Positions 203-46,117 of a stretch of 64,000 bases of DNA are shown here, in pieces. The DNA comes from Scenedesmus sp. ARA3 (Eukaryota > Chlorophyta > Chlorophyceae > Sphaeropleales > Scenedesmaceae), in NCBI GenBank assembly GCA_004335835.1, contig RWJK01001126.1, forward strand, positions 46,228-110,227. The letters are read 5' to 3'. Position numbers and translations under genes: made by a program. The notes beneath the pieces were generated by a model, which was not told the origin of the DNA, did not search any database, and worked only from the letters and a program-made list of their open reading frames with translations. Position 1 is the stretch's first letter, and the number at the start of each line of letters is the position of its first letter.

Positions 203-1621
203 GCGCGCAGCCCCTCCTACTTCCCTGGAGACTTGCGGGTGCTGCAGCTGCTGGATGTGCCTCAGCTGCGGCAGCTGCAGGATGTGCTGGTGCTGCCCGT
301 GCAGGGGCCCCGCCCCCATGCCGACGAGTGCTCCGGAGGTGCGCGCAGTGGTGATGATTGCACAAGTCAGGCCTGCTTGTCAAATTTTAGTTGTACGTTG
401 GACGTGGGTCCTTGTGAGTGCATACTTACGCAGCAGGCATAGCTGCTAGCATTACAAGCCCTGCTGTCAGGCCACCTGCTGCTAAAAGTTCAATTTGCAT
501 CACATTGCATGCTCACATCCTGAAGTGGGAACATCAATAAAAAGCTATAGTATTTGTAAAGATCCTCGTTACGTCTTCCCACAAGGCCAAAGATTGCAGC
601 TCTGTGCCTCATTTCTTGCCATCTTCAAGTGGTGTGCGCTGACATGCAGGAGGCGAAACACCACCACGCGCGAGACACAAGCGCTGCTACACACTCACCT
701 CCTGTGTGTGGCGCTGCTCGCTGCATCTGCGCAGGCGACTACGATGGCGACCAGTTTTTTGTCTGCTGGGACGAGCGCCTCATCCCCTCCAAGCACCAGC
801 TGCAGCGGCCGCTGGATTACTCAGCAGATGCAGACCCTGCAGCGCCTGCAGCTGCTGCTGTGGACCACCAGGCCCTCATCGAGTACTTTGCTCAGTATGA
901 CCCCTTCATTCTTGGGCGCCTGAACTCGTGAGTGCCTTGCGTTCTTCTGGTGCATCTTTCTTTCCCTGCACCAATGATGGCTTCAGCAGACTGCCATTTT
1001 GCCGATTGGGCCTTGGTAACAGCTGAGTTGTAGCCTCTGCACCTGATCCCGCCTGTGCTGCTGTCTGCCTGCAGCTGCTACATGGCCTGGGCAGAGCTGA
1101 AAGGTCCCAGCTGCCCTGAGTGTGTCGAGCTGGCAAGGCTGTTCTCAAGGGGTGTGGACTCAGTCAAGTCGGGCGCTAAGACCGTTATTCCACCGTGGCT
1201 CAAACTGCCCAAACCTGCAGCTGCAGCGGCAGCAGCACCAGCAGCACAAGCAGCAGCTACTGCTGCAGCAGTAACAGTGCCAAATGTCAGCAGCAGCAGC
1301 AGCAGCAGCAGCAGGAGCAGTGCAGCACAGCCTGCATCCATCTGGCTGCAGCTGAAAGAGCGCGCCTCAAGCTTTGTACGAGCATCGTATCAGCGTTGCC
1401 TGTCCGGCAGCAGTAGAAGCAGCAGCGGTGTGTCTGCCATCACCTGCGGGCTGTCTTTCGAAGACATGATGGACCTGCTTGACAGCAGGGATGTGGGTGC
1501 CACGGAGTTTGACCTGCTGCGGCTGGCTGTCAGCTGGCAGCAGCAGCATGGCGCGTCTGCTGGCGTGGCGCTGCTGCAACTGGTTGACAACATCGACTTT
1601 GCAACGCTGACACCAGAGCAG
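203..1621 (+). other. RdRP catalytic domain region (C-terminal half of the palm/double-psi barrel)
   Basis: Three exons hold the diagnostic cellular RdRP signature. The metal-binding motif reads G-D-Y-D-G-D, with all three Asp present; the usual form is D-L-D-G-D. It is preceded by a Gly-Pro-Arg-Pro-His and Glu-Cys-Ser-Gly segment and followed by FFVCWDERLIP. The 927/1075 junction gives LGRLNSCYMAWAELKG and then CVELARLFSRGVDSVKSG. These are the conserved helices after the active site in the plant RDR1/2/6 and fungal families. The triad is intact, so activity is expected. The match is to the RDR alpha type (DLDGD-like) rather than the DFDGD gamma type. Confidence 0.88.
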
Positions 1622-3672
1622 GTGGGCTGGCAGTATGGTTGGCTGGCAGTAGTGGCGTCATGCACTGGATTCTAAGCAGGCATGGTTGGCACAGCTAACC
1701 GGAAAAGGGTGCTGGTGATGGGTTGCGGCTGCTAGGCAAGACGTACAGTGATCAGTGCCTATTATGTTGCGACAAGCTGGAAATGTGCAGAGGTAATTGT
1801 GACACATAGATCCAGTCACGCCTTATACTGGATGACTCGGTGCCATGTGTGTGCCTGCAGTGTGAGTATGCCGTTGCTGCTGGCGTGCCGCATGAGCTGG
1901 TGTTCAACGACCTGGTGCGCAGCCAGCTGCTGTCAGGCCACCAGGTCAGCCAGCTGGGAGACGTTGGGCAGCTGCGCTGGAGGCTGTTTGATGCAGGTGG
2001 GCGCTTGCTTATCCATCGGCGGTCTAGCTGCTGTATGCTGAATCTAGTTTGGATGTTGAGCAGCTGCTTTTGTGGCTGTGCCGTGTGCCATCAGCCAGCA
2101 AGTTTACTTGATCATGCAGCAGCTGTATGGCCTGCAAAAGCATGCACAGCTCGCGCTAATCTCCTGCTGTGTTATGTAATGCCCGCCTGCAGGCGCTGTG
2201 ACGAGCGAGCGCAGCTGGCAGCAGCTTTACACTGCTGCCACAAAGTTCACCAAAAAGCTGCTGCTGCTGCAATGTCACGATCCACCTCAGACCATCGCGC
2301 TGTACCTGCCGCACCAGTACCCAGGTCAGCCAACGCTATGCTTACCAGAAAGCGTTCACTGCAGATTTGCAGCTGTATCAGAAGAGTCAGCCAGCATGGA
2401 GCTCAAGACATGTTTTGCGCTGCATCAAGGCATTAGCTGCAAATGAAGTGCTTGCTTGTCGGCCCGTGCCTCAATTGCAGCCTAAACACTCTGCCCACCA
2501 GGCATGGGGTGACTTGATGCATCAGCAGCTGTTGCAGGCAGACGACGTCAGCTGGCAAGACTGGCTGCAGCACAGAACAGCGTAACAATCTGTGTGACTG
2601 CCCAGCTCCTGCGCCCTTGTTTGTTGTGGCCTCTGCATGACGCTGCTGCTGGCAGGTGATGGTGTTTATCCTTGTGCTACGCACCGATCTGACGGCCAGC
2701 AGCTATCAGCCATCACATGGGCCTTTGGCGTGGATGGCTTCACCAGGAAGCAGTTCCTATCAGGCCAGAATATAGACCTTGACAGCAGTGAGCAGCGGCT
2801 GCAGATCTACAGGCCACGCAGGCTGCAGCCTGGGCAGGCCCCTGCATTAGATGACCCCAGCAGCAGAGCCAATTCATACCTCTGGCTGCGGCTGGTCAGG
2901 TCCCCTGTGATGACAGCACGCATGCAGCAGCAGCAGCAGCAGCAGTCTCTGCTGCCAAACCAGAGGAGCAGTCAGACACAGCAGCAGCAACAGCAGCAGC
3001 AGCATAAGCGATCACATAAAGGTGTCTCTTCGCTGCATGCACATCAGTCACTGCACCATGGTCAGCAAGGTAGGCAGATCTCCCAGCAACAGCAGCAGCA
3101 GCAGCAGCAGGAATGGCCTTAGCAACGGCAGCAGGAGCAGCAGCAGAAGCAGTGCTAGCTCTCTGCATCTGAACCAGCTGCAGCTCAGTGTAGATGTGCT
3201 CAGGTTTGAGCCCACCAAGTCCTTCACACACTACAGCAAGACCACCAAAATCCCAGTCAGCCGCTACGAGCTTTATGCGGTCAGCTGTGAGCAGTTGCAG
3301 CTGCCTTCCCTGGAGCTGCCAGGCACCTGGGAGTCTTTCTATGCTTCACCCACTGGCAGCAGCAGCAGCACAGCCAGAAGCAGCTGCTGCTTGGTATCAG
3401 CTGGTAGGCAGCTGAGCGAGGAGCAGTTAGCTGAGGCAGATCGGCTGCTGCAGCTGCTGCCTGGTGCCTGCAGCATGATTACACCAGCGGTTGATGCTGC
3501 AGTGCAATCAGATGCAGCAGCTAGAGGTCCAAAGCCGGTTGTCAATGCTGCTGTACAGGCTTGGCCTCGCAGCCCGCTTGGAAGGGGCAAGCCATCACCT
3601 GCGGTGGCATCAGCAAATGGTCATGTACACCTGATGCTGGGCGCTAGCCGTACAGCAGCTGCCACTGGGTGT

Positions 3673-3721
<49 letters not shown>

Positions 3722-4339
3722 TCAAGCAGCAACGGCCGCCTCTGTCAACAGCCGAGGCAGCGCGTGCTGTGCACAAGCTGCTGCTCTCCTGGGCTGACGG
3801 TGACCTGCTGGACGCAGCCGTGGCTCTCTGTGCTGCTGTGAGTTGGCGGCCGTGCACAGTTTGCAGCCAGTGTGGGCAATGCTAGTTTCATGTTTGATGC
3901 TTGTTGGTGACCGACCCTCGTAGCAGCCTTTCATGAAGCTGGGCTGTTTGGCAGATGCTACACCAGGATGTGAAGTTTACGTGAGCTTCGCAAGATGACT
4001 GCATGCATCAGCGGTCCCGATGCTGGGCACATGCTGCAGCACCCTGCACTTCATGCATGCCTGCCAGCTGGATGCATTGGCTGCCAGCAACCGCCATCAC
4101 TGCTCTGCTGCACATCAACACATGTGCAACTTGTCACCATGTTTTTGCGGGTACTATTGTGATGTTGCACGCAGGTCTGTGGCTGCAGCGATGTGCGTGC
4201 AGCAGCAGCAATGCGGCAGCAGTGGCCCTGCACCTGGGCAGCACTGTTCACATGCGCAGCCCGGCTGCATGATCAAGGTGCTGCCAACAGGCTGACGCAC
4301 CTCCTGCTACTGCATCATCATCATCACCATCATCACCAT

Positions 4340-4383
<44 letters not shown>

Positions 4384-7300
4384 CACATCGAGCATCTGCA
4401 TGAGTGCCGCTGCAGTTGTAACTGAAGCAGTGCGCATTTGCAGCATCACTGGCATCCTGCGCTGCTGTCCTGGCGTGGTGCTCACCGTGTGGGCATATCT
4501 GCTGCAGCAGCAGCAGCAGCAGCCGCTGCCACAGCAGCAGCAGCATGCCGAACAGGGTGCTGCAGATGTGCTCAGCAGCTGCACAGATGGAGTGCTGCTT
4601 GAGCTGGTGCTGGCTGTGATGAGGAGCGCTGGCAGCGCCCCTGAGCTTGCAGGTGAGGCACCCAGTGCTCCAGCAGGTGCATTCAGCACAGTCGTGCATT
4701 CCAATACAACTGAATCTATTGCACAGCATGGCTATCCTTTAAGCATGGCAATTGAACCCACCTGTGCGCCGTGCACTGCTGGCATGCTTGCTGCAGGCCC
4801 CGTTCTGCGGCACCTGCTGGCTAGCCCCTCCTTTGTGTGGTCTCCCGCAAGGGTGGCAGAGCTCATGCAGGCAGTTGTAACACAGTGTCCCAACAGAGAG
4901 CAAGCCGAATGTGTACTGCTCCCTTGCATTGCGGCTGCAGCAGCAGCAGCAGCAGCAGCAGCACAAGCAAGAGACAATGTGGTTGCTGCTGCACAGCAGC
5001 AGCACACTGCAGCACTGACAGGGACCCCTGCAGCAAGCAGCTACCAGCTACAATTCAGCCATGCACTAACAGTGGAAATGATGCAGAAGCTGCACAGCAG
5101 CTCAACCTCTGCGGCAGATCAACCAGCAACAGCTGGCTTGCACAGCAGCAGCAGCAGCAGCACGGTGCTGCTGTCTGACCATATATCAGCTGCAGCTGGC
5201 AGGCAGGGCATGCAGCCACTAGCGCGGCAGCTGTCGCAGGGTGGGGGCAGGCTTGGTGGGCCGACAGCTGGCGGCCAAGGCAGTAGATGCAGCGGCATCT
5301 TCAATGCCAGGGCTGTGCAGGTCTCCGCTGCCGTCAGCGCCACAGCAGGAGCAGGAGCAGGCGCAGCAGCAGCAGCAGCAGCTGAAGGAGAAGAAGAGAG
5401 AAAGGAAGAAGCAGAAGAAGCGGCAGGAAAAGAAGAAAAAACAAAACAGTTCTGCAGCAGCGAGGAAGCTGCTGACGCTGCTGTTGAGGTGAAGTTGCAG
5501 CTGCATCTGCCTTGCACTGTAACATTCAGCGTGGACGGTGCAGCATCGCAGCTGCAGGTGGGAGACCTGGTGAGGTTGGCCAGCCAGGCAGCCGATGCAA
5601 CACAGCTGCTTGACAGCAGGTTCAGCGTGGAAGGTATCGTGGTGCAGCTGGACAGGGGATCAAGCATGGAAGGTGTGGTGGTTGAGCTGCCATGGCAGCC
5701 CGTGGGCCTCACAGATCAGCCGTGGCAGCTGCACTGCCTGGGCAACCTGACGACATACAAGCGCTGCCTTGAGGGGCTGGCTGCACTGGCTGCGGGGGGC
5801 AGTACTTATGCAGCTGCCGTTGGGGCAGCAAGCGCAGCACCTGACCGTGTTCTGCAGCACATCATCACGGCAAGCTGGCAGTGGCAGCAAGACAGAGGGT
5901 GCATGTCTGTTGGTGAAGCAGATGCTGATGCATTAGTGCAGCAGCTGAAGGCATCTGGCGAGCAGGCTGTTGGGCAAGATGTGGTGCAGTGTGGAGTGAG
6001 CGATGCACAGCTGCAGGCGGTGTCAGGTGGGGCGCTGAACGCAGCGCAGGAGGCTGCGGTCAAAGCAGCAGCAGAGCAGCGGCTGACGCTGATATGGGGC
6101 CCTCCAGGAACTGGGAAGGTGGGTCGAGGATCCCTCACAGCTGTATCGGGTGATGCTGAAGCCTGCAGTGGGGTGTCCATCCTTACAGGCGTCTGCACTG
6201 GAGCCTGTAGCCTGCACCGTGAGCTTGCCTGCCTTGGACACCAGCACACCAGGGACTGCAGCGAAATCTGCATACCAAACATGTGCCCTGTGAGTCCTCT
6301 ATTCAAACAATAATCAAACCGCAGGCAAACGTGCACACACCAGGGATTTCATGACGCGCGGGAAAACTTGTGCTGCTGCCCGTTGCATGCAGACGCACAC
6401 CATTGTGCAGCTGCTGCGCGTCATGCTCTGTCAACAGCAGGAAGGCACCCGCAGCAGCCACCCCATCCTGGTGTGTACTGAGACGCACACAGCGACCGAC
6501 AACATACTTTCCAAGCTGATTGCATCCAGCAAAACTGCTGGGGCTGCTGCTGCTGCTGCTGGAGGGGAGGCCAGGCACAGAGCGGCAGGGCTGAGGGTTG
6601 AAAAAGAAGAGCTGCTGCGCATCGGGGATGTGGGGAGGGTGACTCCAGAGCTGAGGAGGTACCGTGTGGCAGAATATGCACGTTGCCACAACTTACTTTG
6701 CATTTTTGGCCTGGGCTCAAGGTCTGCAAGTCTGTTATCTATAACACTCTGGTTTAGAGATGCATTTAAACTCAGCTGTCATTTGAGGGCAGCTACTTCA
6801 TGTAAAATGGCGTTACAGTAGTGGGCTGACACGTTTTCAAAATGCACATACTGCGAGTTTCAACTCATCATCATCATGCACTTTTGTGGTGCTGCATGTA
6901 AGCATCGACTTCCTGATGTCTGTAACATGCCTAATACGGCTGATCATGCGTTGTGGCCAGTACTTTGGCACTCCGAGACTCCCGCAAGCTACGGCAGGGA
7001 CGTTGCTTTATATGATGTGTGCTGCCCGCTGCTATTTCATTGCCTGCTGCAGCTGCACGCTTTACGCCCTTGGTGATAAGCTGACCAACGCAGCTGGCTT
7101 CCTGGACATGAAGAAAGTGCGAGCTGAGCTGGCCAGCAAGCGCGTGGTGTTCGCTACTTGCGCTGCTGCTGGCGCCAGCATCCTGCAGGCAGCAGGCGTC
7201 CAGTTCAACACTGTCATTGTGGATGAGGCAACGCAGGTGAGGGTCATCTCATGTTGCAGACGTTCAACCCAATGCATCGGCTGCGACACAGAAGCACCAA

Positions 7301-9231
7301 AGTGGACACTGTTGTGCCATGCCACAGTGTTTGGTGCGGGAACCGCCTACCCTTGTGCATGCAGCAGGATGGATGCAGTGTGCATGGCGGCAGCTGGGAG
7401 CATGCCGTATGCAACATATTTTGTGTGCACTCTGACGCTGTCACGACCAACCCCAAAGTGCCCACACTGTGTGCTGAGCACGTGTGCCTGATTCTGTTGC
7501 TGCTTCTGCACGAATATGGCTGTGCGGCAACCTGCCACCTGCAGGTGCTGGAGCCCTGCTGCCTGCTGCCGGTGCTCCTGGGGCCGGCGCAGCAGCTGGT
7601 GCTGGTGGGCGACCACAAGCAACTGGGTCCCTGCGTCAGCGCAGCAACTGAGGGATATGGCTTGAAGGTGAGGGTGATTCCTCCATGCAAGCAGCATGTG
7701 GTGTCCATTTCTGGCATGCAGTGGAGGGAAACTGCGAGTGACAAGCAGTGTTCTCTTAAACCAACTGTTGGACTTCAACTCACTTGCTTGAAACGCTATA
7801 CCCAGACCACACATCACAGCCGTCGCCAAGAAGGAGCAGTAATATGCGCCCTGCTGGCTGCTGTTGTATGCTAGCAGCGTGTGCTGCTGTAGTTGCACCG
7901 TGCCTGTTGAAAGCGCACCCTCTGGCAGTCACGCCTGTGCAGCATTGTGTGCCCTTCACCCTTAGAGGCTCGCGCACTTGCTGTCTGTACGCGCAGGAGT
8001 CATTGTTTGAGCGGCTGCTGGCGTGTGGGGCTGCAGAGCCGCACATGCTGACCACGCAGTACCGCATGCACCCAGGCATAGCAGCACTGCCCTCAGACTG
8101 CTTCTATGGGGGACTGCTGGACACCCACTACAGTAACCAGGTGAGACATGCTGGAAGAGTGTTTCTCAGTTTCCCGGCACAAGCTTGACACTGTCAATTG
8201 CACCTGAACCTGAAAATCAGATCAACATTGGCTGCAGCATCAAAAGGTATCACCTGTGTTGTGCATGTGCCACTCTTGCTGTACTGTACAGTCCTGCCCC
8301 ACACTGGGGCCCTGCCTGCAGCCCGGCATCTCCCTCGTCGATGTCGAGGGCAGGGAAACCGCAGCAGGCTCCAGCTGGCTCAACAGAGACGAAGCTCAGG
8401 CTGTGGCACGAATCCTGCGACAGCTGCTGAGCCCAAAAGGCGATGGCAGCGGCAGCAGCAGCAGCAGTGTACTGGTGGCCAGAGGCATTGGCATCATCAC
8501 ACCCTACAAAGCCATGGTGCAGGAGTTGTGCAGCGTGATGGCTCGGGTGCCAGGTGCAGGGGAGGTGGAGGTCAACACAGTGGAAGCATTCCAGGTGCTT
8601 CTAGAGCATGTGCATACACTCTGGATGGGACCAATCAATCACCAAAACATTCAATGATGGACATGGTAGCTGCAACACATGCCGTGTCATTGTTGTGCTG
8701 CGTGTGAACCAGCGGGTCATGCCATACCATGGCCGGTCTGTCGACCAGCTGGATCAGCCTGCGGCGGCATTGCAGCTTGCATCAGCTTGCCTTGCGCAGC
8801 CATAACACAAGAACAGGTGCATTATCCTGAAGTGCGCAGTTGCACTGCATGTCAGAAGTTCAAATGGTCAGCATGGTGCATTACACATGTAGGGTGACAC
8901 ATGAACAGCAAGATCCATTTGGACCCGTGACAGTATGCCACATGCATACTCATCTATACCTGCATGCATTGGGCGCTTGCTGCTGCCACCGACGCTGCCG
9001 ATCTTGCCACTGCAGGGGCGTGAGAAGGACGTTGTCATCTTCTGCTCTGTGCGCTGCAACAGTGGCGGCAGGCTGGGCTTTGTCGCTGATGCGCGGCGCC
9101 TCAATGTGGCCGTCACGCGCGCCAGACATGCGCTGGTGCTGGTCGGCAGCCGCAGGACGCTGGCTGCGGATGAGCTCTGGGCGCAGTGGGTGTGCAACAC
9201 CAGCTGCAGGGACCTGAGGCTGGAGAGCTAG
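203..9231 (+). CDS. RNA-dependent RNA polymerase fused to SF1 RNA helicase (5' end outside window)
   Basis: Threaded exons: 203-338, 735-927, 1075-1621, 1861-1996, 2193-2324, 2656-2899, 3123-3837, 3955-3980, 4175-4277, 4343-6118, 6393-6658, 7053-7236, 7545-7667, 7997-8140, 8322-8594 and 9016-9231 (TAG). They total 5214 nt and stay in frame, giving 1737 residues. The first exons carry the eukaryotic RDR catalytic region: SPSYFPGD, then GPRPHADECSGG joined across an intron to DYDGDQFFVCWD. A Gln/Ser-rich middle follows, then a complete SF1B helicase. Expected role is copying RNA into dsRNA for small-RNA silencing, with the helicase clearing structure or protein. Edges at 2899/3123 and 4277/4343 were chosen mainly by phase. 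Alternative: two tandem genes split near 3.9-4.4 kb, for example starting at the ATG at about 4400. I see no stop plus poly(A) signal there, so I favour one gene. Confidence 0.72.
3673..3720 (+). repeat. (CAG)16 microsatellite, coding (poly-Gln)
   Basis: Sixteen uninterrupted CAG units encode Gln in the linker between the RdRP and helicase parts. It is probably length-variable between strains. Confidence 0.95.
4313..4381 (+). repeat. Mixed CAT/CAC/CAG triplet tract at a probable 3' splice site
   Basis: A CAT/CAC run passes directly into 13 CAG units. If 4278-4342 is an intron, the acceptor is the first CAG and the later CAGs are alternative acceptors that all keep the frame. If it is exonic, it encodes His and Gln runs. 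Confidence 0.85.
6034..9231 (+). other. SF1B helicase core domain
   Basis: All expected motifs occur in order across seven exons. A Q-type start (NAAQEAAV) precedes the Walker A GPPGTGK, completed across an intron by THTIVQLL (6118/6393). Motif Ia is in 6393-6658. Walker B is VIVDEATQ (to 7236). Motif III is VLVGDHKQLGP (7545-7667). Motif IV region is TTQYRMHPGI (7997-8140). Motif V spans VNTVEAFQ (to 8594) and GREKDVVIFCSVR (from 9016). Motif VI is NVAVTRARHALVLVG. The DEATQ box and YRMHP are typical of the UPF1/SDE3/MOV10/Hrr1/ZNFX1 group. All catalytic residues look intact. Confidence 0.9.
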
Positions 9232-10883
9232 CACGCTGGCCTGCTTTACTTGATACACTGTTTGGTTGGGACGTCAGCAGGTGGTTGCTGCCACTATTCA
9301 GCGCTCATCACCGGGTGTGCAGTAACGGTAGTGGAGCATGTGGGCACACGGGCGAGATGCTTGGCAGACCCATGAATGGGCCGGATATTTCGACACGGGT
9401 AACGCTGTATGCTTTCGAGGTGTTGCAATTTAAAGCAGTGCACTTCACTTTGACAGTGCCAGGCAGGCAGCGTACGCTACATTGCTTTACGCAGTACTGC
9501 TGCACGCATGCGCGCTGCATGATAAGCAGCAACTGTCTGAACACATTTCGGCATCAACAGCGGCTTACAGTACACCACGAGGGTGCATACATGACAGCCT
9601 TCTACCATCAACTTTAGTATCAACTTCAATGTCAGAGACACTCATGAAGCACATAACCAATGCAGGCCCGGCTCCCAGCATGTCAGGCAGCACATGCCGT
9701 AAGGGCCTGCAGGCAATGCACCTGCACAGCAACAGCCGCGTCTGCGTCTGCCGCATCAGCTGCAGCAGCATGCTTTGCTAGAGTTCCGTTGTTGACGTCA
9801 CATACGTGCTGGTGGTGCAGCCTGCGGCCGCGAGGCCTTGCCCCGGGGCACTACACTGTACCACATGTCACCACACAACCCCTCTGTACCACATGTCACC
9901 ACACAACCCCTCTGTACCACATGTCACCACACAACCCCTCTGTACCACATGTCACCACACAACCCCTCTGTACCGCTGCGGTGGAGGGTGAGGTGCATGA
10001 GCAGCACACACGGCCAACCAGGCGACGCACTGAAGTAAGCAGCAGCGGTGGGCAGGCCCGAAGGCTCTGCCGCACGAAAAGCTTACATGTACAAATGTAC
10101 ACAAGGATGATGACCACAAGGCTGATCAATAAACCCTACCCATCATCAACGGCATCCCGCAAACACACGTGCTGCAAGCAACCAACAAGCCCTGACCCTG
10201 CTGTCAACATATACCGATACTTGAACAGGGTGCAGCAGCACAGATGCACAGAGCACTGAACACACAACACACTGCAGATCAGGTAACACAGCAATACTGG
10301 CAAGCCGCGCTGATTGCATCTACCTAGCACTACGCTAAATGCATCTGCCTGACGCAGCGTAGCCCTGACCGGCATACCCCCCAACCACCGCGCGGTTTGC
10401 AGTCTTGAAGCACCACAATGTGACAAACCAGTGACGTCGCAGTTAGTAGCAAATGTGACTACAAGGTTTTCCACAACAACGCTGTGCACTGCAAACCCCA
10501 TTTCCTGAAAAGCGGCACATCTGGCACTTCAACAGGCGTGCTACTGTACTTGTCACGAACTGGCGGCAAGCCTGCTTGTATATCCACATGCGCAGCAACA
10601 GCACGGCAAGCCCACACCTGCTGAAGTGCAGCAGTAACCTACACCCCCTTCATTTATCAATCGAGTGCCAAGGGCAATGGCCCAAACAGCACGCGCCCAC
10701 CTTCCCATACCCATCTCTCATACTGGCACTACACACGTCCACCACATGTGACCACACTCATGCATACAGGTTGCTGCACTCGCAAGCCCCAGCCGCCCAG
10801 CAAGCTCCCTGAAAGACATAACCCACTCATCACGCAGTGGACCGCGTCAACCAGCACGCCAACTCACTTCCTCATACGACACA
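9232..10883 (+). other. Intergenic region between convergent genes
   Basis: It lies between the helicase stop and the stop of the minus-strand Rieske gene. It holds a 28-bp tandem array (9860-9971) and a candidate minus-strand poly(A) signal (TTACA at 10083-10087). Open frames here are short and look like no family I know. Confidence 0.6.
9860..9971 (+). repeat. 28-bp tandem repeat, 4 perfect copies
   Basis: The unit starts ACCACATGTCACCACACAAC and ends CCCTCTGT. It is repeated at 9860, 9888, 9916 and 9944 without mismatch. There are no spacers, so it is a minisatellite and not a CRISPR array. Confidence 0.95.
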
Positions 10884-12208: not shown

Positions 12209-14656
12209 CATTGCAATGCTGACACCAGCTGCAGCCTGCTTGCGGGCAGCCCGGGCATGGAGAACACAACTGCAGAGCTTATGCTTGACTTATCCGCTGA
12301 GCAGGACCGTACTTGCGGCTGGCTGTCTCAAACAGCTGCTGCTCGTATGTGTTTTTGGTCACAGGCTGGTGACTAAGAATACATACGACCAGCAGCTGTT
12401 TGATATATATATCATTAATATATAGCGAACAAACAATCATCATCATCATATCATATAATATCATATATAATGTCATGTAAACGTAAAATCATACATATAA
12501 TCAATATCAATCATCTAAAATCATCAGCAACTATTTGACATATATGCCCCCAGCGCTGCCCTGCCCCCAGNNNNNNNNNNNNNNNNNNNNNNNNNNNNNN
12601 NNNNNNNNNNNNNNNNNNNNNNTCCCCCTCACCCCAGGATGTGCTTCACCCAGGTGGGCATGGCGTTGGTGAAGAGGCTGGCGGTCTTCAGCGGCTGCAT
12701 GTCCCTGTCAGCAACCCAGCTGGTGCCGTGCAGCCTGCGGCAGCAGCAGCAGCAACGCGGCAGCAGTGAGGAAGCCGTATAAGCTCTATGACCAGAACGC
12801 TGTGGCTGGCGCTATACATTTGCTGCATGTGCATATGGTGCTGGCACACGGTGCAGCACAGCAGCAACCCGAAACGATCCAGACAGCAGCAAGCTGACAG
12901 CACAGCACAGCACGGCACAGCACAGCAAGCCGCACAAGACAGCGCTGGCCAGCCGCAGCCGCACCTGCACCAGCCGCACCTGCACCAGCCGCACCTGCAC
13001 CAGCCGCACCTGCACCAGCCGCAGCCTCACCTGCACCAGCCCGGCTTTGTGGGTGCGATGTAGAAGATGAGCCCGCTCAGCACGTTGGGGTCCTCGCTGC
13101 CGGGGCGTGCATCGTCAGCGCCGCGTGACTTGCGCTGCTGCGGGCGCGGCTCAGGGTCGGGGCCGGGCTGCAGCCTGCGGGAACACATGCCAGTACCAGC
13201 AGCAACGGCAGTATGGCAAGCAGCACATGCTGGTTGAGAACTGATCATTGCTGGTTGAGATGGTGCAGAACAACTTGCACAAAGAAGCACAGCTATGGGG
13301 GTTGGACGCACAGTGTGCATGTATGCGGCTGTGTGCAACCTGCGCTGTTTGCAGCTAGCCGCTTGCGGCCCATCTAGCTACATGCACAGCCATGCACAAC
13401 CAAATTTGCCTGGACCCTGCTGAGCCAGGTCTACCATGCTATGCGCTATGCGCTGTCCGCTGTGTGCTGTGCAACCCCGCTCACGTCACGAGTGATGGCG
13501 GGTTGAAGTGGATGTAGCTGCCGCGCTTGTGAAGGTCGCTGGGCACCACCTGGTACACAAAGCCTGCGGGGCCGCGGTCCTCGTGCAGGCGCAGGTCCTG
13601 CGTCACAAACTTGGCTGCAGGCACATGAGACAGCAGCAACAGGCAGCAGCATAAGCTCACTGCGTGCACGCGTGCAGCATGGGTTGCTTGCAAGCCGACA
13701 GCTGTGAGCTGTAACATAATCACAAACCTCAGCAGGGAAACACATGCTGCTATTGATGGCTGGTCAAGTGTCCCAGAGCTGTCACGCCTTTGCTTGCACG
13801 GCATGCCACGGCCGCAGCCAACGAAGCACAGCACAAAGAAGCACAGCAGAAAGAAGCACATCACGAAGAAGCACAGCACGCAGCGCGGGCCACTCACTTG
13901 CATCAAAGCCTGCCACGCCGTGGTGAGCCTGCGCAAACCATGCAGCAGCAGGCAGCATCAGCAACGGACAGCTCACTGTGACGTATTCATGCACATTACC
14001 TGCTTTGCGCCACATGATGGTCACCCAGTCAAGCGCTGAAGTGGCAAGCGTGTGAGGCGATGCATACCGACATAGCTGTACTGTGCTGTGCTTTTGCTGT
14101 GGTGTTGCGTGCAGTACTGTGCTGTGTTCTCTTGCAAGCTGCCGAGTCAAGTGCTGCTGCTGGTGGTTCAGCAGCCAGCCAGCAAAGTCCACTCACAAAG
14201 TCCACGTGTGTGGGGTCCATCACGTTCTCCACGAAAAAGTCCCAGGAGTAGGGCAGGTCGCGCGTCTACGCGAGGTGCAGGGCAGGCGGCAGAAGCGAGC
14301 GGCAGTCGCAGCAGCATAGCACGAGGCACAGAAGCGCAGCAGGCTGGGAGCACAGCAGGTCGGCAGGCAGCACTGAGGCAGGCAGCAACGAGGCACAGCA
14401 GGCGCAATGCAACAGGTGGCACGTGCGCCAGCGACAGCCTCATGATGGCTGCGCAGCAGGATAGGCTGCAGACCAGTCGCTGCCACTGATGCACGGCCCA
14501 GCTGTTCAGCAGCTAACTGTCATAGCTGCCAGCTGCTGGCTTCTCCTACTCATTGCTGCTGCTGCTGCTGCTGCCAGGCGCTGCCCCTCACCATCCAGCG
14601 GCCCTGCAGCGGCACAAGCTTGTCGTCCTGCAGCTGAGGCAGCACAGGCACGGCTG

Positions 14657-25227: not shown

Positions 25228-28200
25228 TCATGCCTTTGCTGCATCAACTGCAGCAGGCAGAGGCCCGCTAGCTGCAGCAGCTGCGGCTGCAGCTGCAGCG
25301 CCAGCTGCACCCACAACCACTGCAGCAGCTGCAGCCGCAGCCACCACCGTACCCGCAGGCGCGCCTGCAGGCACAGCGGCTGCTGCAGCCAGGCCAGCTG
25401 CTGCTGCCACCACAGCAGCTGCCGCGGTTGCTGCTGTTGCTGAGCAGCCCGGCGCCAGCAGCCGACCATAGCGCTCATACGCCCTGCTGGAAAGCTGCAC
25501 AGCATCGCCAACCGGCGCCAGCGCCAACTCAGCAGCAGCAGCTGGTACAGCATCCGCAGTGAATGTCAGCACACCAACACCACCTGCAGCTGAATCCACA
25601 GCCATGGGCTCCGGCTGCATGCTGCTGCCGCTGCTGCTGGTGCTGCCGCTGCTGATCCATCGGTACGTCATCATCAGCACCTCCAGCCGCCATGCTGCCG
25701 CATCATACTGCCGCCCCTGCAGCAGGTCCTGCTCCAGCCTCGCCAGCCACGCCTGCCAGCGAGGCAGGTAGAAGCTAGAGATCAGGCCAGCCCACTCCTT
25801 GTTCGCATAGTCACTGACCTCACTATCGCCTGCAACTGCGCTAGTGCCCCAGATTGTCAGCTGCGTGCGCATGTTCCATTCGTACAGCGCCGCCAACCGC
25901 TGCTGCTGCTCAGCACCATCTGCAGCTTGAACCACAGCAGCAGGGTCAACAACAGTGCTAGCGCTTTCTGCGCTGCCGCCACTGTCAGTGCTGGCAAGGC
26001 TGCTTGACTTGTGCAGCACCCTCGACTCTGCATTTCCCGCTGCTGCGCCCGCCCCGTCCACTGCAGCTGCCATTGCTGCCACAGCAGCGCTGCCGCTGCT
26101 GCTGCATGCGTAGTTGCGTGCTCGCTGCAGCACTGGCCCCAGCAAGAAGGCCCTGTGGCTGGCCAGTAGCTCATCCATGTCGCCCAGCAGCGCCAGCAGC
26201 GCGGAGCCGCTGGCGCGCAAGCCCGCCAGGTTGCCGGCCTTGTATGCATCCACGGCGTCAGCCCAGAAGCGGCCAGCGATCTGTGAGGATAGCAGCAGCA
26301 GCGGTGCGTGGGTCAGGGGTGTCAGCAGGAGCCTGATAGATATCTAGATACAGGGTTGGCAATGCAACCAAGGCAGCCAAGACGCCAAGCAACTGTTGTT
26401 GCGCCCATTGCACCGTAACAGCCAGCACCCCTGAAAAGCATTGAACCACGCCACAAGCAGGCATGCAGCTCTGCTGCCCTGCAACCTCACTGCTGCCATT
26501 ATCTGCAAGCACCCACTCACACAGGCCGCCCCTGCTCGCACCTTGCTCAGCAGCTCCCGGCTCACGTCCAGCAGGTCATACACAAACGCGCTGCTGCAGC
26601 CAGCCAGCCGCGGGCAGCCAGCGGCAGCCTGCAGCATCAGCTCCCATGCAGCGCGCACTTCGCCAACGTTGTACCATAGGTGCGGCGCCAGGCCCCAGCC
26701 CATGATCTCAGTGCCCGCTAGCCCTGGCCGGCTGGTGGGCACGTCGCACACCGTGTTGTGCAGCTTGTCGCTGCAGCTGTACACGCTGCGTGCCAGTAGC
26801 TGCCATGCGCCCTGCAGCGCAGCAGACGCCGATGCAGGCAGGCTGCCAGCGCCCGCGTAGCGCCGCTGCGCGTACTCTGCAAACCATGCCGCCAACCCAC
26901 CAGGCGCAGCCGCCTCTGCTGCGCGGCCCTTGAACGCCATCTCTGCCATAAACTCATACACTGCGGGGTTCTGCTCGATGCCTTCCGGCGCCATGCCAAC
27001 GCCCACCATGCCACCCTGCGCCGCATCCAGCGCAGCCGCCACGCCGCTTGCGACAGCCGGCAGCGCGCCGTACATCTCCAGGTTGCCGCCAAAGTTGTGC
27101 AGCATGCACCATATGAACGGGTGGCCGAACAGGCACGCGGTGCGACTCCAGATGGGGTGCTCCTCCGCAAACAGGTCCAGCAGCAGCAGGCGCCCGCGCG
27201 GCACGCCCGACAGCAGCGCCTGCAGCGGCGCGAGAGGATCAAAAGTGGCAACACTGTCAGTACAGGCAGCACCAATAGGGAACTTACGCAGTAGTGAGCT
27301 TCGCCTGCAGCATGCAACAAGCTGGTTGACAAACTGCGAAGGTTGCGATCCAAAAACGACACACACGCTCCCTGCCACAGCACGCAGCACACAAAGAGCA
27401 GCACACACTTGAGACGCACAGCGAGCAAACAGCAGGACAGGGCATAAGCAGGCCCTGACAGCAAGTCGCCTGCTACTATGTGGCTGCGCACCTGTATCTG
27501 AGGCGGTTGCCAGAAGCGTGAGTCACTGAAGAACAGCCACGCCTGCATCACCCTGCAGCAGCAGCGACATGTGGACGTGTGGTGAGTCACAACAGCTTCA
27601 CTAGCAGTTATGCAGGGCCTTGTGCTGCAATACTGCATGAGATTGCACAAATGCTTCTGCACGCTGCAGCTGCAAGAAGCCCTGCAGGGGTGCACAGCAA
27701 GCAACTGCTGCTGATGGCACAGGGGTAGGCACACACAACCCCCGCATGCAGGGCATCACCAACAGCCATTTCTGCTCACCAGACAGCGTTAGCGTCTGCG
27801 CCGGTCATGCCAGCATACACGCTGCGCGATATGCCCGCCAAGTAGTCCACACTGTCGCTGGCAGGCTTCATTTCGTTGAAGGTGTCCGCGATGTAGTAGC
27901 TGGACGCATCCCAGCCCAGCTCGGCGCGCAGCGTGGTGATGTATGCCGCGCCGATGCGCGCAAACAGCGGGTCATCCGGTGCTAGCAGGTAGGGACAGGC
28001 ATAGGCATCCGGAAAGTGGCACCAGTTGGAAGCTGGTGTGATGGCTGCATCAGGGTACAGCGCAGCCAGCGCGCGCGGCACGAACCCTGCAAAGGCCGGG
28101 TAGACGGGCGTCATGCCCAGCTCGCGCATGCGCCCCACCACGCGGCGCGCAAGCTGCAGCTGCTTCTGCATGTACGCGGCCGGCAACGGCCCGCCGTAAC

Positions 28201-45100: not shown

Positions 45101-46117
45101 CTGCGAGCTGCATCTCAGCACGGTTGATGCTGGGCTTGCTCTGCCTGCTGCTGTGTGTATGCAGGAGGGCCTGCTACCGCCAGATGCTTCACAGCAGCGA
45201 CAGGGGTGGCAGCAGCAGCAGCCCCAAGGGCATGCATGGCAGCAGGATAGCAGTAATGAAGGCGGTTGGCCTAGCGAGCCCTGGCAGCAGCAGCAGCAGG
45301 AGCAGCAACAACAGCAGTGGGCTGCTCCTGCCACGCCCCCGCCGCCTCCACCACCTGCAGCTGGCACACTGCCACGGTACAGTGATCAGCAGGTATGCCA
45401 AGGCATGCACAGCACATGCACAGCACATGCACAGCACATGCACAGCACATGCACAGCACATGCACAGCACATGCANNNNNNNNNNNNNNNNNNNNNNNNN
45501 NNNNNNNNNNNNNNNNNNNNNNNNNNNNNNNNNNNNNNNNNNNNNNNNNNNNNNGCACATGCACAGCACATGCACAGCACATGCACAGCACATGCACAGC
45601 ACATGCACAGCACATGCACGGCACATGCACAGCACCACATGCTGCTAGTGTGCTGTCCACAGTCGCTGCTGTAATACGCCTATGTACCACCCCATCAAAT
45701 ATTCTCAAATGCCGGCTTGTGCTGCTGTCCGAAGTGCACAGACGGCTGGCCTGACCGCACTTCCTTGGCCGCTTCTGCTGCTGCTGCTGCCGCTGCCGCT
45801 ACGGTGGCTGCTGCTGCAGCCGCACACAGGCGTATGTGGTGACCCGCTGTGCCCCTGCAGCCAGGGCTGCTGGGGCAGGCAGCGGCCCGGGGTGCGGAGA
45901 GTGAGGCTGCCTGAGGCGCCCCAGGGCATCAGCATCGAGCTGCGTGATAGCATGCCCAGTTGGAAGCGGCGGCAGATGCAGGAGGCCCTCATGTGAGTGA
46001 TGCTGCGCAAATTATCTGTTGTGTCATGTGCTTGCACCTTGCATGCTCTTAGTGTGTTCTTATGACGTAGACTAGGTGCTGGCGTCCGTGCCGCGCAACA
46101 AAACACCACACGCCGGA

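Follow-up and report, generated by a model that had tools for sequence, protein, structure and literature searches.

We describe here a gene on the forward strand of a 64,000-nucleotide (nt) stretch of DNA from the green alga Scenedesmus sp. ARA3 (contig RWJK01001126.1, positions 46,228 to 110,227; hereafter the window). At positions 203-9231 of the window, 15 candidate exons splice into a stop-free frame of 1690 amino acids (aa) holding the C-terminal part of a cellular RNA-dependent RNA polymerase (RdRP), followed by a complete superfamily 1B (SF1B) helicase. The two enzymes are very probably encoded as a single gene, and judging from sequence its membership in a family that pairs an RdRP with a UPF1-like helicase is close to certain. 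The sequence establishes the order of the domains, their colinearity and the catalytic motifs of the two enzymes. It also makes the gene a close relative of fusions in volvocine algae, within a family that occurs in sponges, cnidarians and bivalves as well. This family is apparently widespread yet little described. Position 203 seems to be an internal splice acceptor, which places the N-terminal part of the RdRP and its 5' exons outside the window.

The polymerase and the helicase

A sequence-only reading of the window had proposed an RdRP with a D-Y-D-G-D motif and a full SF1B helicase on the same strand, and had suggested the corresponding Pfam profiles as a check; both enzymes are found. 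The RdRP model PF05183 matches the frame at 560-931 above its curated threshold (E 2.8e-10, 39.9 bits versus a cut-off of 23.8), with a further match below cut-off in the next exon's frame (5.7e-4). The catalytic motif DYDGD (737-751) fits DxDGD and retains the three Asp residues. The nearest solved relatives of this part are RDR2-type RdRPs (7eu0, 7roz and 7w84, which we take to be of plant origin; 7e-24 to 1e-22), whose chains run to about 1130-1170 residues; the match to the window model ends at residue 153.

AAA_11 and AAA_12 matches together span about 6035 to 9231, and the helicase motifs are kept (I or Walker A, GPPGTGK; II, DEATQ; III, GDHKQL; VI, RRLNVAVTRAR). Compared with solved chains, the helicase core is nearest to UPF1 (2.6e-56, 194.8 bits), with NAM7 next, then an RNA helicase whose PDB entry (8ftm) names it SETX, SEN1, IGHMBP2 (SMUBP-2), DNA2 and then ZNFX1 (97.6 bits). 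The ranking is similar when the profile is built from seven fusion proteins: UPF1 367 bits, NAM7 348, SEN1 304, IGHMBP2 259, DNA2 248 and ZNFX1 243. With UPF1/NAM7 offering the nearest solved SF1B core, we classify the helicase as UPF1-like.

The sequence-only reading had instead typed the helicase as SDE3/Hrr1 and taken the protein for a one-chain RNA-directed RNA polymerase complex (RDRC). The fission yeast RDRC consists of Rdp1, Hrr1 and Cid12, and plant RDR6 works with SDE3; in these systems, as in the window gene, an RdRP and an SF1 helicase form a partnership, but as separate chains. The literature gives Hrr1 as the Schizosaccharomyces pombe orthologue of ZNFX1 and describes how, in fission yeast and Caenorhabditis elegans, distinct RdRP and SF1 helicase proteins work together in silencing (PMC9276528). 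This partnership of Hrr1/ZNFX1 with RdRPs speaks for a one-chain RDRC, as does the placement of the window helicase in the same wide group. Yet UPF1, NAM7, SEN1, IGHMBP2 and DNA2 all outscore ZNFX1, in comparisons that did not include SDE3 itself, and neither list of PDB matches contains a chain named SDE3 or MOV10. We regard an SDE3/Hrr1-type helicase fused to the RdRP as very improbable.

A probable single gene across the linker

A helicase-region search identified PF05183, AAA_11 and AAA_12 in one chain in Chlamydomonas schloesseri (P0005), Pleodorina starrii (P0011) and Gonium pectorale (P0012), species names being the source labels of the database proteins; the domain order sought by the sequence-only reading is thus present in other chlorophytes. 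This search provides an unbiased figure, with 12 of the best 120 proteins (of 1486 matches) carrying both motifs. A search with a fusion profile (829 matches past 1e-10, best 120 listed) adds sponges (Dysidea, Ephydatia, Oopsacas), cnidarians (Actinostola, Hydractinia) and bivalves (Mercenaria, Mya, Dreissena, Mytilus), in which the RdRP, a BACK-TLDc linker and the helicase share one chain as in the window gene. Altogether, 118 of 231 fetched proteins carry both a DxDGD-type RdRP motif and GPPGTGK, and in every one of the 118 the RdRP precedes the helicase. The count is no survey figure, because a search that uses fusions as its query finds fusions by design, and the strict motifs miss relatives such as P0212, P0220 and P0221. 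Homologues always encoded by two genes had been named as the outcome that would speak against a fusion, and this objection fails because many homologues are a single protein.

The same proteins refute the idea that the fusion is unique to the window, and its novelty had been overstated. RdRP-SF1 helicase fusions are possibly mentioned in a 2014 comparative-genomics review by Burroughs and colleagues. Beyond the volvocine and animal database proteins, a Branchiostoma RdRP with AAA_12 (BL02069), the combination seen in the window gene, has been published by Pinzon et al. (PMC6396948). The family is patchy in sponges, since one of them, Amphimedon, reportedly has no RdRP (PMC6211395). Among the matches listed, viral contigs are represented by one at 24% identity, in the helicase part only. 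The volvocine fusions have Gly-rich runs where the window gene has Gln/His-rich ones, and P0005 has an N-terminal cytochrome P450 match (residues 80-212) that probably reflects a merged gene model. Fifteen of 23 fusions scanned (alignment A4) match AAA_28 at E 1, N-terminally in P0017 and P0029; the corresponding end of the window gene lies outside the window, and so does the place where RdRPs of the Dictyostelium type carry a DExD/H helicase. AAA_28 is presumably a nucleotide-kinase-like ATPase.

Evidence for a single gene in Scenedesmus itself comes from the region between the two catalytic motifs. A profile of this region from the 118 fusions, with the window gene excluded, matches the spliced window model with 405 bits (E 4.3e-125, a one-sequence search). 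When it is run against 1066 six-frame open reading frames from the window, all seven matches listed lie in frames of the fusion gene (best E 1.1e-27). The point at which a gene boundary had been feared is an intron of 337 nt at 3838-4174, which is phase 0 and GT-AG, with a typical acceptor (12.6) and a weak donor (5.4, second lowest of 13). On its upstream side, exon 3159-3837 matches the linkers of P0005, P0011 and P0012 (0, 0 and 9 of 300 shuffles reach the score); on its downstream side, so does exon 4175-4652 (1, 0 and 0 of 300). P0067, which falls in the sponge clade of the helicase tree, matches neither exon (221 and 148 of 300), and the case for one gene therefore rests on the volvocine relatives across this gap and on the wider family to either side of it.

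These matches bear directly on the possibility of two same-strand neighbours, an RdRP gene that stops near 3.9 kb and a helicase gene that begins near 4.2 kb. Such an arrangement would be in keeping with the weak donor at 3838, the low conservation over aa 501-700 and the existence of stand-alone helicases that neighbour those of the fusions in the tree, and exon 3159-3837 matches two of the three volvocine linkers mainly through its first 60 residues. It fits poorly with the similarity that the exons on both sides of the gap show to the linkers of volvocine proteins made as one chain, and with three named volvocine relatives in which both enzymes occupy one annotated protein. We therefore reject the two-gene arrangement as the more likely one and consider it quite improbable. 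TGTAA poly(A) signals are lacking in the 3838-4174 gap, which is not diagnostic because none occurs either on the forward strand from the gene's own stop to 12000.

The window gene shares its helicase clade with the volvocine fusions, as it does domain order and linker. In a 54-row tree, the window helicase forms a clade with these three fusions (100/98), separate from one that unites 15 UPF1 sequences and P0001 (100/97). Forcing the window sequence into the UPF1 clade is rejected (p-AU 1.5e-5), and with it true UPF1 identity. The zinc-binding and 1B domains that UPF1/NAM7 has (PF09416 and PF18141) are not found in ten window pieces (E 0.1) or in six fusions (E 0.01; two of the six by their best 25 families only). 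The trees comprise chosen rows (22 of the 118 fusions, 15 UPF1s and 16 others), and P0002 was omitted from the second because of its very long branch. The free trees do not show all fusion helicases as one clade and require 2 changes; the fusions used stay together in 66% and 33% of 200 bootstrap trees, and a constraint that unites them is not rejected (p-AU 0.33). Stand-alone helicases without an RdRP, including P0022 and Ostreococcus tauri P0023, adjoin the fusion helicases outside the UPF1 clade with modest support (82/83) and are a possible source of the helicase half.

In predicted models of two homologues, structure comparison resolves the linker into a BACK-like bundle followed by a TLDc domain; these comparisons reflect only the ranked matches of Foldseek, and nothing is concluded from absence. 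A featureless spacer is ruled out by the structured linker of these two models. Profiles built from the fusions detect BACK (E 1.9e-18), TLDc (E 1.2e-7) and a stalk1B region (E 1.4e-5) in the window gene, all from a 232-sequence search. The predicted order is thus a eukaryotic RdRP, a BACK-like bundle, a TLDc domain, a helical repeat and the UPF1-like SF1B helicase. The BTB-BACK and TLDc proteins OXR1, NCOA7, mEAK7 and TBC1D24 appear to have the same folds as the linker domains of the two modelled homologues; BTB itself gives no match in the Pfam lists for the window and the fusions examined. Passages on TLDc proteins contain no link to an RdRP, whereas the window gene joins a TLDc-like domain to one. 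Nor, in literature queries that did not include TLDc itself, did a title or abstract opening describe an RdRP-TLDc-helicase protein, or a passage a BACK-TLDc linker.

Several observations weigh against this picture, most of them in the linker. A helical-repeat profile from all fusions has no match in the window gene, where this part is supported solely by the closer volvocine proteins. The linker piece of exon 4797-6118 has weak or no matches (2, 22, 272 and 212 of 300 shuffles), and at the 5% level the P0067 linker shows no match to 4 of the 7 exons or exon pieces compared. The Pfam TLD model (PF07534) finds nothing in the window or Gonium pieces and falls below cut-off on a P0117 fragment (0.008), as does Pfam BACK (PF07707) on the window (0.099). 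A protein search with linker aa 230-560 considered 4886 candidates and gave no match at 1e-3. The helicase branch is long (1.57 and 1.48), and the second position of the RdRP motif is Y in the window gene, versus L (DLDGD) in 117 of 118 fusions and M (DMDGD) in the remaining one. Lastly, the frame must change once within 2656-3837, in a Gln/Ser-rich stretch at about 2895-3183.

This frame change qualifies the earlier claim that exon phases close from 203 to 9231. The claim stands for 13 GT-AG introns of 144-421 nt and the stop-free 1690-aa product, with the G+C content of every exon (0.58-0.71) above that of every intron (0.47-0.57). It does not stand at 2895-3183, where 155 GT-AG pairs are possible and none is strong: the best scores 10.8, versus 15.8-27.3 for the 13 other introns, from which the scoring matrix was itself built. 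The join 2899/3159, the only one in the model that is not GT-AG, is a placeholder made for searching only. A small assembly indel could possibly account for the frame change instead. It could also mark a true fusion gene that has decayed here into a pseudogene, which the unusual DYDGD and the long helicase branch would suit as well. Against such decay, the helicase motifs and the three Asp residues of DxDGD are retained, the other exons have open frames, and TLDc similarity resumes beyond the frame change; we judge a pseudogene improbable.

A possible role in RNA silencing

Taking the window gene as an intact fusion, we think it probable that its product is a one-chain polymerase of RNA silencing, in which the helicase assists the RdRP in cis. 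The RdRP would copy single-stranded RNA into double-stranded RNA (dsRNA) for Dicer, and dsRNA synthesis for silencing is a reasonably likely function. UPF1-type helicases move 5' to 3' on RNA, and a polymerase reads its template 3' to 5'. The tethered helicase could remove proteins and structure from the template and reel it toward the polymerase, while BACK-TLDc might act as a docking and spacing module that positions both enzymes and may dock the protein. This division of labour among RdRP, helicase and BACK-TLDc is put forward tentatively.

The protein might instead make or remodel RNA outside RNA interference (RNAi), for example in RNA quality control, where the UPF1-like helicase would be the leading activity. 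UPF1 is the nearest helicase, and Pinzon et al. speculate that the Branchiostoma RdRPs, one of them with AAA_12, work outside RNAi (PMC6396948). With the window helicase excluded from the UPF1 clade, and UPF1-specific domains not seen in the Pfam matches listed for the fusions, we consider such a role unlikely.

If the single-chain silencing polymerase is correct, its conserved form makes physical order and a 1:1 ratio of the two enzymes testable in one purified protein, and the cellular location of such an enzyme can be approached concretely through the BACK-TLDc linker. TLDc proteins solved on the V-ATPase are among the structure matches, and the V-ATPase membrane is therefore a testable partner, but nothing beyond that. 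A bolder scenario, which we rate as doubtful, is an ancient one-chain RNA-amplification machine that predates the split of green algae and animals, has often been lost or split, supplies dsRNA in green algae held to lack a conserved RdRP and docks through TLDc on V-ATPase-bearing membranes. If true, small RNAs would be amplified at the surface of endolysosomes or vacuoles.

An RdRP in a green alga had been flagged as notable in itself, which holds, but it is not new. One putative RdRP is reported from Coccomyxa (PMC3446292), a survey that includes 10 chlorophytes gives them 0.30 RdRP genes per species (PMC4290597), and "ancient RDR-like homologs" are reported from Chlorophyta (PMC7994812). Chlamydomonas reinhardtii has phased small interfering RNAs though no conserved RDR, and the survey describing them raises the question of a non-canonical RDR (PMC7676726). 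The fusion in C. schloesseri, a relative of C. reinhardtii (PMC8226300), bears on this question.

Exons and surroundings

The first RdRP exon visible (203-338) covers the core ahead of the catalytic motif. Its start is uncertain because tblastn alignments extend upstream of 203, to 146, 116 or 92; P0005 residues 858-927, for instance, align to 146-355 at 50% identity. The motif lies in exon 735-927, supported by Pfam, tblastn and motif placement. Exon 1075-1621, with the sub-threshold PF05183 and PF07707 matches, would hold the RdRP end and the start of the BACK-like bundle (fusion-built profile at 1337-1950), with the remainder in exon 1861-1996 (none of 300 shuffles reaches the score for any of the four linkers). 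The TLDc-like domain (profile at 2201-3291) appears to begin in exon 2193-2324 (0 of 300 for each of the three volvocine linkers, 82 of 300 for P0067) and to continue in exon 2656-2899 (0, 0 and 1 of 300 against the volvocine linkers), whose 3' end is uncertain. Beyond the frame-changing stretch, exon 3159-3837, with an uncertain 5' end, would carry the end of this domain and a low-complexity linker, as placed by shuffle tests and the TLDc profile. Exon 4175-4652 contributes part of the putative helical-repeat region, with His/Gln runs, and precedes an inferred in-frame intron at 4653-4796.

Exon 4797-6118 encodes the remaining linker, the 1B/stalk region (profile at 5549-5779) and motif I (6098-6118), and matches AAA_11 at 9.3e-5, below cut-off for this piece alone. 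The motif Ia region follows in exon 6393-6658 (AAA_11, 2.3e-7), motif II (7222-7236) in exon 7053-7236 (AAA_11, 9.6e-8) and motif III (7608-7625), by motif placement, in exon 7545-7667. AAA_12 covers the QYRMHP region of exon 7997-8140 (6.4e-13), the ITPYKAM region of exon 8322-8594 (4.5e-11) and the last exon, 9016-9231 (3.6e-18), with QGREKD, motif VI (9094-9126) and a TAG stop.

About 0.6 kb 3' of the fusion gene, 4.2 perfect tandem copies of a 28-base unit occupy 9856-9974. Assembly gaps (N runs) lie at 12571-12622 and 45476-45554, none of them within the gene. A tRNA scan of the window found none. On the reverse strand, two adjacent frames at 25228-27522 match NAGLU (PF05089 and PF12972) and mark an alpha-N-acetylglucosaminidase-like gene.

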